Shown one piece after another: positions 5,526-17,701 of a stretch of 21,404 bases of DNA. Every line of letters starts with the position of its first letter. The first letter of the stretch is position 1. The DNA comes from a virus, in the IMG/VR virus record IMGVR_UViG_3300033149_006501, positions 1-21,404 of that record. One strand, given 5' to 3'. Position numbers and translations under genes: made by a program. The notes below the pieces were generated by a model. That model saw only the letters and a program-made list of their open reading frames with translations, made no database searches and was not told the DNA's origin.

Positions 5526-6149
5526 TTATTCCACCTTATAAAGATAGTCTTCTTCTACTGTGTAAACTTTCTCTCCTATGTGACCAAATCTTACATCTGT
5601 ATCAATAAAAACTCTAAAACCTTTTTCTTTAGCCTTCAGGCAAAATTGAATATCAGAGCTTATCTTTTGCTTCATATCATACTCAAACCAGGGATAGCTT
5701 ATTGCTTCAAAAACTTTCCGTTTTATAAGGCAAAATCCCATTCCAACCCCGTCAACCTCTATAAGCCCTTCTTTTATCTCTGGGTCTTGAAAGCTATTCT
5801 TTACTTTAACCCGAGCAATAAGCCTGTGTGGCTCTCTTCTTCCAATATAAAGTCCTGTGACAATATCCTTGTCATCTGCCAAGAGCTTCTCAAGAGCATA
5901 ACGAGGAAAAGTCATATCTCCGTCTATAAAGAGAAAATACTCAGCTCTTTTTATCCTTAAAAACGCCTCTACCAGCTTATTTCTTGCCTCGTGTATGTAT
6001 GTTCCCTGTATCCACTGGTAGATAAACTCGTGAGGATTAGGTTTTCTTAACTCATAGTCAATGAGCTGAATTAAGCTTGCTTCTCTTCTCCAAGAGGGGT
6101 CGCCGTATAGAGGCAACCCCACCATAATAACTTTCCCTTTATCTTTCAT
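5526..6149 (-). CDS. GT-A glycosyltransferase family 2-like protein in the virion operon
   Basis: 207 aa. I chose ATG at 6149 (TAATG overlap with the upstream stop, AGGA SD) over a TTG at 6173 without a good SD. The N-terminal strand (KVIMVGLPLYGDPSW) starts a Rossmann-like GT-A fold. FLFIDGDMTFP carries the DxD metal/nucleotide-sugar motif (D76, D78). Then come VDGVGMGFCLIKRKVF and SSDIQFCLKAKEKGFRVFIDTD (D166 at the usual acceptor/catalytic region), followed by H190. No membrane segment is present, so it is soluble. It may glycosylate a virion protein or alter host surface glycans. The donor and acceptor cannot be told from sequence. Confidence 0.8.
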   Translation of the reverse strand: MKDKGKVIMVGLPLYGDPSWRREASLIQLIDYELRKPNPHEFIYQWIQGTYIHEARNKLVEAFLRIKRAEYFLFIDGDMTFPRYALEKLLADDKDIVTGLYIGRREPHRLIARVKVKNSFQDPEIKEGLIEVDGVGMGFCLIKRKVFEAISYPWFEYDMKQKISSDIQFCLKAKEKGFRVFIDTDVRFGHIGEKVYTVEEDYLYKVE

Positions 6150-6760
6150 TAACTTCCTGTTAATGCTTTCCAAGCACTACCGTCATAGTAGTAGATAGAG
6201 CTTCCAGAGAGAAATACTGTCCCAGTTGCAGGAGTAGAAGGTGCTGTGGTTGTAACAGGAATTACCAATCTTGCATTTGCATCCTGAATATCAATGGTAG
6301 CACCAGAGGCTACTTTTACTGTCCCATCTAAGCTAGCGTTAGAGTTAAATTGAACAGTTGCACCAGAAGCAATTTTCATAGTTCCAGTAACAGAAGCATT
6401 AGAGTCATAATTTACAGTTGTGCCAGAGGCAATCTGCATAGTTCCTGTAATAGAGGCATTGGTATCAAAGTCAACTGTTGCTCCCGAGAGAACCTGCACG
6501 GTGCCACTAAAATTTTCAGTTCCAGAGTGAGTGTTTGTTCCTGAAAAGGTATTGTTTCCAGAGAAAGTATTGTTTCCAGTTACAGTCTCATTCTCATCAA
6601 GAATAAAACAGGCATGAGATATCATATCCTTGACTCTATCAAAGATGTAGCTAAAACCAGGAGCTTTTTGCCTTGCCTCATCAATTTTCCCAGCGTAGAC
6701 AAGTCCGGAGATAGCTACGCTGAACAAGGCTATAAGAAACCATACTCTCCATTTGCTCAT
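6149..6760 (-). CDS. Repetitive fibre-like protein with signal peptide
   Basis: 203 aa, ATG behind GGTGAGG. Residues 1-23 form a signal peptide (WRVWFLIALFSVAISGL, cleavage near VYA/G). After a short helical region come four 6-residue units (GNNTFS, GNNTFS, GTNTHS, GTENFS; residues 62-85), then four 20-residue units of the form GTxxxASGATVxxxSNASxx (86-165). The C-terminal tip IYYYDGSAWKALTGS is of the kind seen in phage tail fibres. The repeats predict a regular beta-helix or triple-beta shaft. It is translationally coupled to the glycosyltransferase, so this Ser/Thr/Asn-rich shaft is a plausible glycosylation substrate (inference). Confidence 0.75.
   Translation of the reverse strand: MSKWRVWFLIALFSVAISGLVYAGKIDEARQKAPGFSYIFDRVKDMISHACFILDENETVTGNNTFSGNNTFSGTNTHSGTENFSGTVQVLSGATVDFDTNASITGTMQIASGTTVNYDSNASVTGTMKIASGATVQFNSNASLDGTVKVASGATIDIQDANARLVIPVTTTAPSTPATGTVFLSGSSIYYYDGSAWKALTGS
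6266..6577 (-). repeat. Coding tandem repeats: four 18-bp units and four 60-bp units
   Basis: Within the repetitive fibre gene, 6506-6577 encodes four 6-residue repeats and 6266-6505 encodes four 20-residue repeats. The 60-bp units are diverged at the DNA level (different codons for the same residues), so the array is not a recent expansion. Unit number may vary between related phages. Confidence 0.85.
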
Positions 6761-6773
6761 TTTTTAACCTCAC

Positions 6774-7247
6774 CTATTTTTTCTTTTTTTCCTTATCCCA
6801 TCTACCGTGAGCTGAGGCTTTATGAGCTTGGAGCTGTTCTTCTGACTCTGCTATATAATCACACCCCGGAAAATCACATTTGTATTCTGAATGAACTTCT
6901 TGAAGGTGTTTTTCCATATCCTCTACATCCTTAGCTTTATATCCACATCCAGGATAGACGCAGATAAGATAAGCTTTAGAGATTTCCTTTTTTGCCTCTT
7001 CCTGAATTTCCTCCTCAGTTGGAACTCTAAAGAAGTCTCTTCCAAAATGAGGATGTGATTCTAAGAACCTAATCTCCTCTTTGTTATCAGTTTCGTAAAA
7101 GCCTCCGTGAAACTGGATTGATTTCATATCCTCAACAAAAACATGCTCTCTAATCCCGTCTCTCACAACCTTCTTGTATCCGGGGTTGACTATCAGCTCA
7201 AGCTCATTGCCGACCACAGACTGAAACCTTGCTTTTTTCTTCCTCAA
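6774..7247 (-). CDS. Head-region protein with two C-terminal C2H2 zinc fingers
   Basis: 157 aa, TTG start (7247) six bases after GGGAGG. The N-terminal part (about residues 1-76) contains SIQFHGGFYETDNKEEIRFL ending in ESHPHF, a pattern of small proteins often found beside phage capsid genes. The C-terminus has two matching fingers, each C-x4-C-x12-H-x4-H: C96, C101, H114, H119 and C124, C129, H142, H147. They share the CxxPGC knuckle and are separated by four residues, like tandem nucleic-acid-binding fingers. A Lys-rich tail follows. It is the first gene after the capsid gene, separated by a strong hairpin. It may bind DNA inside the head or act as a late regulator; both are inferences. Confidence 0.75.
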   Translation of the reverse strand: MRKKKARFQSVVGNELELIVNPGYKKVVRDGIREHVFVEDMKSIQFHGGFYETDNKEEIRFLESHPHFGRDFFRVPTEEEIQEEAKKEISKAYLICVYPGCGYKAKDVEDMEKHLQEVHSEYKCDFPGCDYIAESEEQLQAHKASAHGRWDKEKKKK

Positions 7248-14477: not shown

Positions 14478-14716
14478 TTTTATAATACCCCTATAAATAA
14501 TAATATTTTTAATAATAAATCTTATTTTAAAACAATAATATAAATAATACTTAATTTAAGTATAGTAAATATCCCTTTCTTTTACCTCCCAAATCCCTGG
14601 AACCTCCCTTCTATCCCACTATAGCAAAAATCCTACTCCATAATTAAACTTAAAAAACTTGACAAAAATGCAGTAAATGCTATAATAGAAGCAGAATGAA
14701 AAAAAAGGAGGTAAGA
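14478..14716. promoter_or_regulatory. Divergent control region with strong rightward promoter and AT-rich palindrome
   Basis: No gene. The rightward promoter is close to consensus: TTGACA (14659-14664), 16-base spacer, extended -10 TGCTATAAT (14678-14686). It should start transcription near 14693, a few bases before the first plus-strand gene. The spacer contains the dyad-like GCAGTAAATGC (14671-14680, overlapping the extended -10). Further left, ATACTTAA-T-TTAAGTAT (14547-14563) is a perfect 17-bp palindrome in very AT-rich DNA and may be an operator for one or both directions. No convincing leftward promoter for terS was identified. Confidence 0.8.
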
Positions 14717-15007
14717 ATGTTAACAGAAAGAGAAAAAAGAATCTTGGACAAATACCTCAGAGGCAAAGAAGAAGGGCCAAAAGAGGATCCGGAAATTATA
14801 GATGCGATGGAGAAAATCTACTACTCCGGTGGGAGAGAAGGAACAGATTTTTCTCCTGAGGTAGAGAAAAAGATATTGGAGCATCTTGGGAAATTACATC
14901 CAGAGCACGATTATTCTGGTCTCATCCAGAGATTGAGAAATCCGGAAAGAGCAAAGTTTGCTGCATACACAGTACTTCGCTCTTTCCCAAAGTGGGAGAG
15001 GAGGTAA
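14717..15007 (+). CDS. Unknown small charged protein, first gene of the rightward cassette
   Basis: 96 aa. I chose ATG 14717 (AAGGAGGT four bases upstream) over ATG 14696, which lies on the expected transcript start and has no SD. The protein is charged and helical (MLTEREKRILDKYLRGKEEG, VEKKILEHLGKLHPEHDYSG, LIQRLRNPERAKFAAYTVLR). No metal motif, signal or membrane segment. Being the first gene behind a near-consensus promoter, it is probably made early and strongly. Family not recognised. Confidence 0.75.
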   Translation: MLTEREKRILDKYLRGKEEGPKEDPEIIDAMEKIYYSGGREGTDFSPEVEKKILEHLGKLHPEHDYSGLIQRLRNPERAKFAAYTVLRSFPKWERR

Positions 15008-15012
15008 AAAAG

Positions 15013-15264
15013 ATGAAAAAAGTAGAAAAAAGAATTTGGATTTGGCTTCAGCCAGATGACGGAGCATACTCAGAGGAGTATGCTAGGGAAACTATAGCAA
15101 GCTATGAAAAGCTTCTTGATGTAGAGGTAGAGGAGACTACCTTGTCCCGAGACACAGGACATGGACAAGAAAAACTCTTCATCATCTCAGGTGATCCTGA
15201 GGCGGTGGAAAAATTCAAGATAAACCTTGACGAAGTGGAAGGAATCTACTTCGTCGAGGAATAG
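15013..15264 (+). CDS. Unknown small protein, possible ferredoxin-like fold
   Basis: 83 aa, ATG 15013 behind GAGGAGGT, which overlaps the end of the previous gene (coupling likely). The order strand (RIWIWLQPDD), helix (EEYARETIASYEKLLDV), strand (VEVEETTLS), strand (EKLFIISGD), helix (PEAVEKFKINLDEV), strand (GIYFVEE) is beta-alpha-beta-beta-alpha-beta, as in ACT-like or ferredoxin-like domains. Acidic. Such small acidic phage proteins are often inhibitors of host enzymes, but no target can be named. Confidence 0.7.
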   Translation: MKKVEKRIWIWLQPDDGAYSEEYARETIASYEKLLDVEVEETTLSRDTGHGQEKLFIISGDPEAVEKFKINLDEVEGIYFVEE

Positions 15265-15276
15265 AAGGAGGGAAAA

Positions 15277-15840
15277 ATGGGGATAAGAGAAAAGTTTCTT
15301 GAGTTGGTTGAGGAACGAAAGAAATCCCTCCAAGACGAGGGATGGGAAATACTGGATGTAAATGTCGGAAAAGCTCTAGGGTTTATCAATGTGAAAAACC
15401 CTAGAGGTCAAGAAAGAATCTATATGCTCAATTCTGAAGGTGTAGAGAGAATGGCGTTGATATGCAATCGATGCGGTAGAGAAATTTTTCCAGATGAAAC
15501 TTGGGGATACGAAAATCCAACCTTATCGGACAGAGTACTCTGCAAAAGATGCTGGGGAGAGGTTTACCCTGGCAAAATATTGCCAGAGGTAAAATACAGA
15601 ACAGTAGACCGAGACCATCTTATTAGATTTTCCATCATTAGAAGTAAAGGTGAGGAAGAAAGGGTAGTAGACCTCGAGCATTATACGATTGGAGTTGCTA
15701 GCCATGAAATTCTCTATGAAGACGAGAATATTCTCATAGGAAAGGGAGAAAGCGAATATGTAGATGCCGAGGAGGAGTTTTATTATATCCTCCTCAAGGG
15801 GCAAAGAGGAGAAATTGAAGAAGAAATTGAAGAGCAGTAG
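15277..15840 (+). CDS. Unknown protein with a CxxC-CxxC zinc ribbon
   Basis: 187 aa, ATG behind AAGGAGGG. The N-terminal helix (EKFLELVEERKKSLQDEGWE) precedes a beta region, then ICNRCGREI (C63, C66) and VLCKRCWGE (C89, C92), a zinc-ribbon-type site. The C-terminal half is beta-rich and acidic (EHYTIGVASHEILYEDENIL) and ends in a Glu-rich tail. No enzyme motif. The last codons lie inside the terminator hairpin that ends this transcription unit. Confidence 0.7.
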   Translation: MGIREKFLELVEERKKSLQDEGWEILDVNVGKALGFINVKNPRGQERIYMLNSEGVERMALICNRCGREIFPDETWGYENPTLSDRVLCKRCWGEVYPGKILPEVKYRTVDRDHLIRFSIIRSKGEEERVVDLEHYTIGVASHEILYEDENILIGKGESEYVDAEEEFYYILLKGQRGEIEEEIEEQ

Positions 15841-15864
15841 GGCTTTACCCTCTGCTCTTTTTTT
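15831..15864 (+). terminator. Rho-independent terminator
   Basis: AGAGCAG (15831-15837) pairs with CTGCTCT (15852-15858), with inner AGGG/CCCT, followed by a run of seven or more T. It overlaps the stop codon of the preceding gene and closes the first three-gene unit of the cassette. Partial read-through could feed the next genes, as no clear new promoter is seen after it. Confidence 0.85.
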
Positions 15865-15893
15865 ATTTTTAAAAAAAGAAAAAGGAGGTAAAA

Positions 15894-16250
15894 ATGAGAA
15901 CAGTAAAGACAGTTAAGAATCAACAGGAACTCAAGTCCTTCATTGAGGACTTGAAAAGAGAAGAGAAGGAATTTAGAGGTGGAGTAGCAGTAATGGATGG
16001 AACGGTGAAGGTTTGCTTTCGGAGAGGATTCAAAAGCAACGGCGGTGGATACCTAGTAGACGAAATTGAACCTGACACTCCATATCACTTCTACAGAGAA
16101 GTGAAATGCCCTGCTATTGTGTATCTGGCGGCTCGACACTTTATCATCCCCCGGATGTATTGCGTAGACATTCTAGCGGTGTGCAATCTGGAAGGAGCTG
16201 TTACCAAAGACGATGTCCCCGCACGGTGCTTTACTGTGCGGTGGGATTAA
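15894..16250 (+). CDS. Unknown protein upstream of the Csx3-like gene
   Basis: 118 aa, ATG behind AAAGGAGGT. It starts with a charged helical region (residues 1-27) and continues as a mixed alpha/beta domain with three cysteines (VCFRRGF, VKCPAIVYLAARHF, RMYCVDILAVCNLEG). No known motif. It lies 20 bases before the Csx3-like gene and ends in the same terminator, so the pair forms a two-gene unit. An anti-defence role is suggested only by that partner. The last codons form a hairpin (16219-16241) just before the next SD. Confidence 0.7.
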   Translation: MRTVKTVKNQQELKSFIEDLKREEKEFRGGVAVMDGTVKVCFRRGFKSNGGGYLVDEIEPDTPYHFYREVKCPAIVYLAARHFIIPRMYCVDILAVCNLEGAVTKDDVPARCFTVRWD

Positions 16251-16270
16251 GAAGAAAAGGGAGGAGTAAA

Positions 16271-16516
16271 ATGAAGAAAGTTACCATTGACCTGTCCTCA
16301 CTACACGGAGGACAAGCTAAGCTAGGGAAAGTGAATGAATACATTTCTTGTGCCCAAGAACTAGCAGGGCACGGAAACGAGGTTATCCTCACAGGTCCTG
16401 CACCTGTGTGGATGTACCTGAAGCTTGCCCATGCTCTACACGGGAAAGCAACTATTTTGAAATACCTCTCCCCAGCTACGGGGGAGGTAACCATCTTTGA
16501 CCATAACCCTCACTGA
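16271..16516 (+). CDS. Csx3-like protein (candidate viral ring nuclease / anti-type III CRISPR)
   Basis: 81 aa, ATG 16271 behind GGGAGGAG. The N-terminal strand KKVTIDLSS and the core NEVILTGPAPVWMYLKLAHA, followed by LHGKATILKYLSPATGEVTI then FDHNPH, align along their length with the CRISPR-associated Csx3 family: G42-x-x-P45-V-W47, L52-A-H54, H57, then P-x-x-G71 and D77-H78. From memory of archaeal Csx3 (AF1864), the histidines near H57 and H78 are kept, but the DPRLG loop is SPATG here, so the Asp and Arg there are missing. It is also shorter at the C-terminus than usual Csx3 (about 100 aa). Csx3 cleaves cyclic tetra-adenylate. A phage copy could quench type III signalling, or be a cA4-binding sponge if catalysis is lost. 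Confidence 0.65.
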   Translation: MKKVTIDLSSLHGGQAKLGKVNEYISCAQELAGHGNEVILTGPAPVWMYLKLAHALHGKATILKYLSPATGEVTIFDHNPH

Positions 16517-16555
16517 TTAAAAAAAGAAATTAATGAGGGTTAGGGCTGAAAAAGA

Positions 16556-16592
16556 AGCCCAGTCAGGCTAAAAAGCTTGGCTGGGCTTTTTT
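16556..16592 (+). terminator. Rho-independent terminator after the Csx3-like gene
   Basis: AGCCCAGTCAGGCT (16556-16569) pairs with AGCTTGGCTGGGCT (16574-16587) over 14 bp with two G-T wobbles and an AAAA loop, followed by six T. An extra 8-bp stem AACCCTCA/TGAGGGTT (16505-16541) precedes it, beginning inside the last codons of the Csx3-like gene. Confidence 0.9.
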
Positions 16593-16619
16593 ATTAGAAA
16601 ACAAAAAGGAGGTAAAAAA

Positions 16620-17156
16620 ATGGAACTTTGGAAAAGTTGGGTCAAACAAAATGCCGAGCAAACCGTTGAATACCTAAAAGTAGCTGGGGAAGCGGAAAAA
16701 AAGAATCTCCAGCTTATCCAAGAGCTGGAGAGGAAAATAAGAGAATTACTTCCAGAAACATACAAAATTCTGGAAGAAATTAAGAACAATCCGAGACTGA
16801 GAGAGAAAATCAATCGGCTTTTGTGGTGTTCTGGTTGCCATTCTCAGCATCCGCTCACTACTGCAAGCCTTTACAAACTCCTTCCCAGAGATTGGGCTGA
16901 TTTCATCGTGCCTAATCTTGATTTCCAAAGATATGAAGAAGAATATCTATGCGGCCCTTATTGGTATATCCCTTCTGCTTTTCACGCTTCCTTTTGCATC
17001 TGCCCCACAGAAGGTAGTTGGAACTGGGTAGAGAAGGAATACTGGAAGCGAAAAAAGAGTATCCTGCAGGGCTTCAGGAAGCATCCTGACAGGTACCCTT
17101 CAGAATATAGACATCTCTTAGAAGGTCCAGAGATGCTGATAGATGATGTTTTATAG
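16620..17156 (+). CDS. Unknown Cys/His-rich protein with N-terminal coiled coil
   Basis: 178 aa, ATG behind AAAGGAGGT after the second terminator. Residues 1-65 are a long charged helix, probably coiled coil (AEKKNLQLIQELERKIRELL). The rest is Trp/Tyr/Cys-rich, with WCSGCHSQH (C70, C73, H74, H77) and later C111, H122, C126, C128, suggesting one or two metal sites. No family recognised. It is followed by a GC-rich structured region rather than another gene. Confidence 0.7.
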   Translation: MELWKSWVKQNAEQTVEYLKVAGEAEKKNLQLIQELERKIRELLPETYKILEEIKNNPRLREKINRLLWCSGCHSQHPLTTASLYKLLPRDWADFIVPNLDFQRYEEEYLCGPYWYIPSAFHASFCICPTEGSWNWVEKEYWKRKKSILQGFRKHPDRYPSEYRHLLEGPEMLIDDVL

Positions 17157-17167
17157 CAGTAGGGCTT

Positions 17168-17265
17168 CCGGGGATGCGGGGGAATTTTGAACCCTGCAAA
17201 GCTTACCCCCGCAGGTAGGCTATCCCTTTCTGGAGAAAAAAGCAGGGTTACACCCTTATCCCCGG
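17168..17265 (+). ncRNA. GC-rich structured RNA element with pseudoknot (candidate sRNA or riboswitch-like leader)
   Basis: The non-coding gap 17157-17313 is far richer in G+C than its surroundings and forms three perfect helices: P1 CCGGGGAT (17168-17175) with ATCCCCGG (17258-17265); P2 GCGGGGG (17176-17182) with CCCCCGC (17206-17212); P3 AACCCTGC (17190-17197, in the P2 loop) with GCAGGGTT (17242-17249), making an H-type pseudoknot enclosed by P1. An alternative stem, AGCTTACC (17200-17207) with GGTAGGCT (17214-17221), excludes P2, and CCTTTCT (17225-17231) can pair with AGAAAGG (17270-17276). No T-tract follows. I do not recognise a known class. It may control the next genes or act as a separate RNA. 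Confidence 0.6.
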
Positions 17266-17313
17266 CATAAGAAAGGATATAAAAAAAGAAAAAATTTGTC
17301 AAGAAGGTCTAAA

Positions 17314-17529
17314 ATGGCATCCTTCAAACAACACCACTTCATTCTACGTCCAGGTCAAATTGTGCAGGGCAAGAGTGGGCATAGAACCTACATTGGTAAG
17401 GTTCTTGAAAGCATAAAGCACCCAGGAAGACCGGCAGTATTCCAGCGTCATGGCTTCGTGGGAGTTTATGTTCTCTGTAATGACGGAAAGAGAAGAGCAT
17501 TAAATGAACTAAGACTTCTAGGAGGGTAG
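17314..17529 (+). CDS. Small basic protein, possible SH3-like beta barrel
   Basis: 71 aa from ATG 17314 (AAGAAGGT six bases upstream); an in-frame TTG at 17296 lacks a good SD. It contains ILRPGQIVQGKSGHRTYIGK, then a His/Arg-rich loop and GFVGVYVLCNDGKRRALNEL, alternating short strands as in KOW or SH3-like nucleic-acid-binding folds. Basic with several His. It lies directly before the HTH gene (one base between its stop and that ATG), so the two form a unit downstream of the structured RNA element. Function unknown. Confidence 0.65.
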   Translation: MASFKQHHFILRPGQIVQGKSGHRTYIGKVLESIKHPGRPAVFQRHGFVGVYVLCNDGKRRALNELRLLGG

Positions 17530-17530
17530 A

Positions 17531-17701
17531 ATGAAATCAAAACCTTTTTACACTGTCAAAGAACTCTCTCACATCCTTGGAGTTCATGAGCAGACCCTTT
17601 ACGACTGGATTGAGCAAGGCAAGATTAAAAGCATTAGGCTCGGTAGACTCATCCGCATCAGAAAAGAGGAGCTACACCGTATCCTCAAAAGAGGAGTGTA
17701 G
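17531..17701 (+). CDS. Excisionase-family / HTH_17 DNA-binding protein
   Basis: 56 aa, ATG 17531 behind GGAGGGT. FYTVKELSHILGVHEQTLYD then WIEQGKIKSIRLGRLIRIRK and EELHRIL is a textbook MerR-type winged HTH of the HTH_17 (AlpA/Xis-like) family: residues 6-20 first helices, 'TLYDWI' recognition helix, 'GKIKSIRLGRLIRI' wing. It is likely a small transcriptional regulator or directionality factor; no integrase is in this window to decide. Its last codons contain a strong hairpin and overlap by 30 bases the end of the convergent gene. Confidence 0.85.
   Translation: MKSKPFYTVKELSHILGVHEQTLYDWIEQGKIKSIRLGRLIRIRKEELHRILKRGV

Follow-up and report, generated by a model that had tools for sequence, protein, structure and literature searches.

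The virus-derived stretch of DNA analysed here (IMG/VR record IMGVR_UViG_3300033149_006501, positions 1 to 21,404; 21,404 nucleotides in all, hereafter "the window") carries a stand-alone gene for an 81-amino acid protein that has the Csx3 fold and, judged by sequence comparison, belongs to a distinct subfamily named after its SPxTG motif. The protein likely serves the virus in countering type III CRISPR immunity of its host; it would be a cyclic-oligoadenylate (cOA) module that a phage carries without the RNase Csx1. Such a role is favoured because the protein matches Csx3 in both profiles and fold, because its counterparts in bacteria form a fusion or a gene pair with this RNase, and because the gene recurs in otherwise dissimilar phages. 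A sequence-only reading of this DNA had pointed to the same open reading frame (ORF), the position and quoted motifs of which are exactly as given there, and its proposal that the product acts against host type III immunity still appears to be the most economical one.

The family assignment is supported by several lines of comparison. Pfam PF09620 (Cas_csx3) matches the window protein with 24.6 bits (E 2.3e-5), above the gathering score of 21, in agreement with the family named in the sequence-only reading. By far the best profile match is PADLOC PDLC01844 (CARF_HEPN_CSX3; 110.8 bits, E 1.9e-32), in which residues 3–80 of the protein correspond to positions 387–464, the C-terminal part of the profile. 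NCBIfam TIGR02579, the Crn3 equivalog, gives 24.8 bits, under its cut-off of 55.4. A structural model by AlphaFold2 (AF2), made with 15 input sequences, has a pLDDT of 95.7 and a pTM of 0.84, and in a Foldseek search of this model against the PDB the top seven matches are all A. fulgidus Csx3 (AfCsx3; prob 0.99–1.00), including its complex with cyclic tetra-adenylate (cA4), 6yud; the cA4-bound protein is the best match. The top five show prob 1.00 and query-normalised TM-scores of 0.63–0.68, with E-values of only 0.008–0.016. The next related PDB match is the cA4-sandwiching domain of Cat1 (sequence E 0.38, fold prob 0.98). Pentatricopeptide designs and HIV protease constructs head the phmmer list against the PDB; their matches, being repetitive or weak, were set aside. 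Sequence and fold thus agree that the window protein is a Csx3-fold protein. It is not called a Crn3 ring nuclease, because it lacks the defining residues and scores under the equivalog cut-off.

In the alignment, the catalytic-face histidines of AfCsx3, H57, H60 and H80, correspond to H54, H57 and H78 of the window protein, so that three histidines are kept and not two as first counted. None of the three is missing from any of the 12 cellular members compared, and three phage copies, the window protein among them, have the full set. K59 and Y49 are nearly invariant in the alignment with the 12 cellular members, and the putative ligand loop, TGxAPxW, covers T41–W47. D69-P70-R71 of AfCsx3 is replaced by S67-P68-A69; across the 12 cellular SPxTG members, the D69 position is S or A (A in L005; L numbers denote comparison loci and contigs) and the R71 position is V, A, I or G. 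In AfCsx3, the D69A mutation abolished activity and R71A strongly reduced it (PMC7371418). The replacement of DPRLG by SPATG, noticed in the sequence-only reading, is therefore confirmed by alignment, while its interpretation as a viral adaptation is ruled out by the cellular members sharing the motif type. Because these members also lack D69 and R71, the SPATG motif is inherited. Similarly, the short C-terminus is real and is common to the cellular subfamily; the window protein is of full length for SPxTG members, and the idea of a phage-specific minimisation does not hold. The conserved residues would coincide with the sites of ligand and metal in Csx3 and not with an obvious protein surface. 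Furthermore, if the Cat1 match is ungapped, the essential W215 and S235 of Cat1 land on W47 and S67 of the window protein; this tentative correspondence, taken from the equal-length match coordinates, is a lead rather than a result.

The closest relatives of the window protein (54–68% identity) are either domains at the C-terminus of Csx1 proteins, which are about 500–550 amino acids long and come from Acidobacteriota and elsewhere, or products of stand-alone genes. Fusions to the CARF-HEPN protein Csx1 (58–68% identity) are found in L003, L004, L029, L031, L033, L039 and L047, and partially in L030. The fusion proteins of L003 and L004 match PDLC01844 with E-values of 1.5e-197 and 3.3e-125, respectively, and the CARF-HEPN-Csx3 fusion itself is already known, being present in PADLOC. 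In L042, L043 and L044, a stand-alone gene is located directly 3′ of a csx1 gene for about 380 amino acids, the operon being of type III and encoding Cas10. By inspection, a cas6-like gene is also found in these three operons, and cas1/cas2-like genes and CRISPR-like repeats in L042 and L043. The stand-alone gene of L005 adjoins a TM-CARF gene; its locus is of type III and, by inspection, includes RT-Cas1. Most of the cellular members examined are linked to Csx1 at type III loci; the phage gene has no such partner in the 21.4 kb window. Probably, the Csx3-like module beside or fused to the RNase Csx1 is an off-switch in bacteria. The module is rare: in the phylum of L003, 12 of the 396 genomes sampled have any match, and in that of L005, 4 of 395; genomes with strong matches are fewer.

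Looking for the same gene in other phages, as the sequence-only reading had suggested, reveals stand-alone SPxTG genes in at least three further phage contigs (L006, L007 and L020), which are otherwise dissimilar and the phage origin of which is supported by PHROG matches, and a distant one in L021. L021, as well as L023–L026 mentioned below, is taken as viral from its IMG/VR record. The phage copies were found only via alignment with cellular homologues. A single-sequence scan of viral contigs gave no relatives, and a tblastn search against 50,697 phage records yielded weak matches only (E 0.6 or worse), the best of which lies inside a tail fibre gene and was ruled out. The viral searches relied on peptide patterns, by which divergent copies are missed. 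When the window proteins were compared with the flanks of the viral relatives, no relatives were found besides the Csx3-like gene and a weak helix-turn-helix match to L017.

L020 is a more elaborate case, with two tandem Csx3-like genes (L020:8001-8526), each having its own ribosome-binding site. Copy 1 keeps two of the three histidines, H57 being changed to N, while copy 2 and the L021 protein have lost all three and keep TGxAP[VI]W and the SPxTG/SPTSG loop. Because the histidines are lost and the putative ligand loop is kept, the sequences suggest sponging in some viral members (L020 copy 2 and L021). Between the two L020 copies, pN is 0.22 and pS is 0.51; because dN/dS is about 0.3, the copies look constrained, which argues against two dead genes, although a single pair cannot prove this. 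A tree built from 81 alignment columns places the window protein with the two L020 copies (support 95/96), and a single origin for all five phage copies of the SPxTG type is neither rejected (approximately unbiased test, p 0.33) nor demonstrated.

The canonical DPRLG type is found in other viral contigs, L022–L026. The related phages L007 and L022 have three genes in common (amidoligase-like, glutamine-amidotransferase-like and one other); the former has a gene of the SPxTG clade and the latter a canonical DPRLG gene next to the terminase. A third Csx3-like type with DDGRG is found in a viral contig (L008:2660-2962), with the second histidine shifted by one position relative to AfCsx3. L017 (NZ_CP133039.1), a "plasmid" of Pyramidobacter, has integrase, LexA-family repressor, Rha and DUF2815 genes in addition to a canonical crn3 and is prophage-like.

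From these comparisons, a mechanism can be proposed. A phage would have taken the Csx3-like cOA module that accompanies Csx1 and left the RNase behind. The dimers of the module would stack head to tail, and cA4 would be clamped where two dimers meet, by the TGxAPxW/SPxTG face of one and the three-histidine face of the other. The messenger would consequently be depleted, and Csx1-type effectors of the host would stay off. M. mazei Csx3 lowers cA4 immunity in vivo, in E. coli (PMC7371418), and AcrIII-2 is a proven precedent for a virus taking the cOA-binding domain of a type III effector (PMC12751052). Several points weigh against a counter-defence role: D69 and R71 are absent, Csx1 of the SPxTG clade could use a cOA other than cA4, the window is a fragment, and neither terminase nor whole-window similarity points to a host, let alone to one with type III CRISPR.

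Given an action on cOA, metal-dependent cleavage with an altered chemistry seems slightly favoured over pure binding. The intact metal face of the window protein makes cleavage plausible; the face formed by D69 and R71 in AfCsx3 is not intact, which makes sponging plausible. The two are sub-cases that divide the probability of the counter-defence explanation between them. A Crn3-like ring nuclease, in which other residues such as Y49, K59 and S67 have taken over the chemistry of D69 and R71, is quite possible, though short of probable: the invariant histidine triad and the near-invariance of K59 and Y49 in the cellular members speak for it, as does the fusion to or pairing with Csx1, which parallels a Csx1-Crn2 fusion described as self-limiting in PMC7293037, but two residues that matter in AfCsx3 are lost and the protein scores below the TIGR02579 cut-off. 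The loss of these residues throughout the SPxTG subfamily is instead what would be expected if its members bind cA4 in the manner of Cat1 without cleaving it, and if the phage copy only sequesters the messenger. The apparently constrained L020 pair, the histidine-less proteins of L020 and L021, and the possible coincidence of the Cat1 residues with W47 and S67 are in line with this, and the Cat1 domain, the next related match in both sequence and fold, has no detectable ring nuclease activity (PMC12162218). Nevertheless, the three histidines kept in all 12 cellular homologues compared and in three phage copies speak against it, and the large messenger output of type III systems has been argued to disfavour sponging (PMC13148439), so that pure sequestration by the window protein is possible but rather doubtful.

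Functions other than on the messenger were also considered. Since cells encode the domain either as part of Csx1 or together with it, contact with Csx1 is possible, and the phage protein could interfere directly with host Csx1 as a decoy subunit or a dominant-negative partner. Fusion does not require surface docking, however, and the position of the conserved residues described above makes this quite improbable. A phage function unrelated to CRISPR, such as RNA binding or processing or nucleotide binding, is reminiscent of the first description of AfCsx3 as an Mn2+-dependent RNA deadenylation enzyme (as cited in PMC7371418), but the affinity of AfCsx3 for RNA is far below that for cA4 (PMC7371418), and type III genes are found at all four stand-alone cellular loci examined for context (L005 and L042–L044), so that it is unlikely. 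Returning to counter-defence, the SPxTG phage proteins may, with a little less than even confidence, constitute a new AcrIII family derived from the Csx1-Csx3 regulator module, in which the Csx3 fold would bear a ligand face resembling that of Cat1 and a metal face resembling that of Crn3, and the members of which would range from ring nucleases with three histidines to the pure sponges of L020 copy 2 and L021.

The gene setting is that of a phage, as the sequence-only reading had described: terminase and SU10-like portal, major capsid and adaptor proteins are recognised. Besides the Csx3-like match, no Cas protein is found among the 32 window proteins and no csx1 within the 21.4 kb, and no CRISPR-like tandem array is seen in the window. 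The Csx3-like gene belongs to an accessory cassette (Table 1) flanked by structural and replication blocks, both on the minus strand. Together with the ORF directly upstream, which has no family match in profile searches (Pfam and NCBIfam among them), it forms one interval of about 0.7 kb with terminator-like hairpins on both sides.

Table 1. Features around the Csx3-like gene in the window.
Feature	Position	Strand	Remarks
Perfect sigma-70 consensus promoter TTGACA-16-TATAAT, head of accessory cassette	14659..14686	+	Chance expectation 0.03 in window
Accessory cassette of small plus-strand genes	14696..17701	+	Csx3-like gene is the fifth ORF
Intrinsic-terminator-like hairpin and T run, end of upstream 187-aa gene	~15829..15866	+	-19.1 kcal/mol, z -5.8
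118-aa ORF directly upstream of Csx3-like gene	15894..16250	+	20-base gap to Csx3-like ATG
Shine-Dalgarno sequence GGGAGGAG	16259..16266	+	4 nt 5′ of Csx3-like ATG; direct reading
Stand-alone Csx3-like gene (SPxTG subfamily), 81 aa	16271..16516	+	ATG at 16271, stop ends 16516
Strong intrinsic-terminator-like hairpin and T run, just 3′ of Csx3-like gene	~16551..16592	+	-30.6 kcal/mol, z -7.2

Some other genes of the window were also noted. A phage protein encoded at 6774-7247 on the minus strand has an apparent pair of C2H2 zinc fingers and is the presumed source of the C2H2 Pfam matches of the window (best 3.4e-8). A glycosyltransferase-like protein is encoded within the structural block (5526-6173, minus strand), probably the source of the Pfam Anp1 match (2.3e-5). 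One of the 32 window proteins matches PADLOC mad1 of the MADS system (4.3e-10).

In the literature surveyed, only two viral enzymes that destroy type III messengers, AcrIII-1 and AcrIII-2, are characterised as anti-CRISPRs, and Csx16 and Csx20 are rare in phages. For 28,114 phage genomes, a survey lists AcrIII-1 (36), Csx20 (4), Csx16 (2) and no Crn3 (PMC12409355). No publication on a phage Csx3 was found in the literature searched, the coverage of which leaves out most subscription journals. If the proposed role is true, the Csx3 subfamily that recurs in phages would add another example of viruses acquiring the off-switch of a CRISPR effector, and the natural variant series with and without the metal histidines could be used to examine whether type III signalling can be overcome by sponging alone. 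For the cellular Csx1-Csx3 proteins, which keep the histidines and lack D69 and R71, the chemistry of the off-switch becomes a testable question.

Compared with known systems, the window protein resembles the CARF-HEPN-Csx3 fusion (PDLC01844) most closely, matching its C-terminal domain over nearly the full length with the SPxTG motif and three histidines, although it has no CARF or HEPN part and no other cas gene accompanies it in the window. With Crn3/Csx3 of A. fulgidus (AF1864; PF09620, TIGR02579) it shares the fold, the [ST]GxxPxW loop and the equivalents of H57, H60 and H80, while D69, R71, R46 and the C-terminal tail are missing and the score is below the equivalog cut-off. The cA4-binding domain of Cat1 (TIR-CARF) is weakly similar in sequence and fold, with tentative identity at W47/W215 and S67/S235, and sandwiches cA4 between dimers as proposed for the window protein; Cat1 itself is a cellular NADase effector without ring nuclease activity, and the match statistics are weak. 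The viral ring nucleases AcrIII-1 (DUF1874) and AcrIII-2 (vSAVED) have proven activities, whereas the role of the window protein is predicted, and their folds differ, that of AcrIII-1 being unrelated and that of AcrIII-2 being SAVED. The proposed role is nevertheless the same as theirs, and in AcrIII-2, as would be the case here, the domain is taken from a type III effector.
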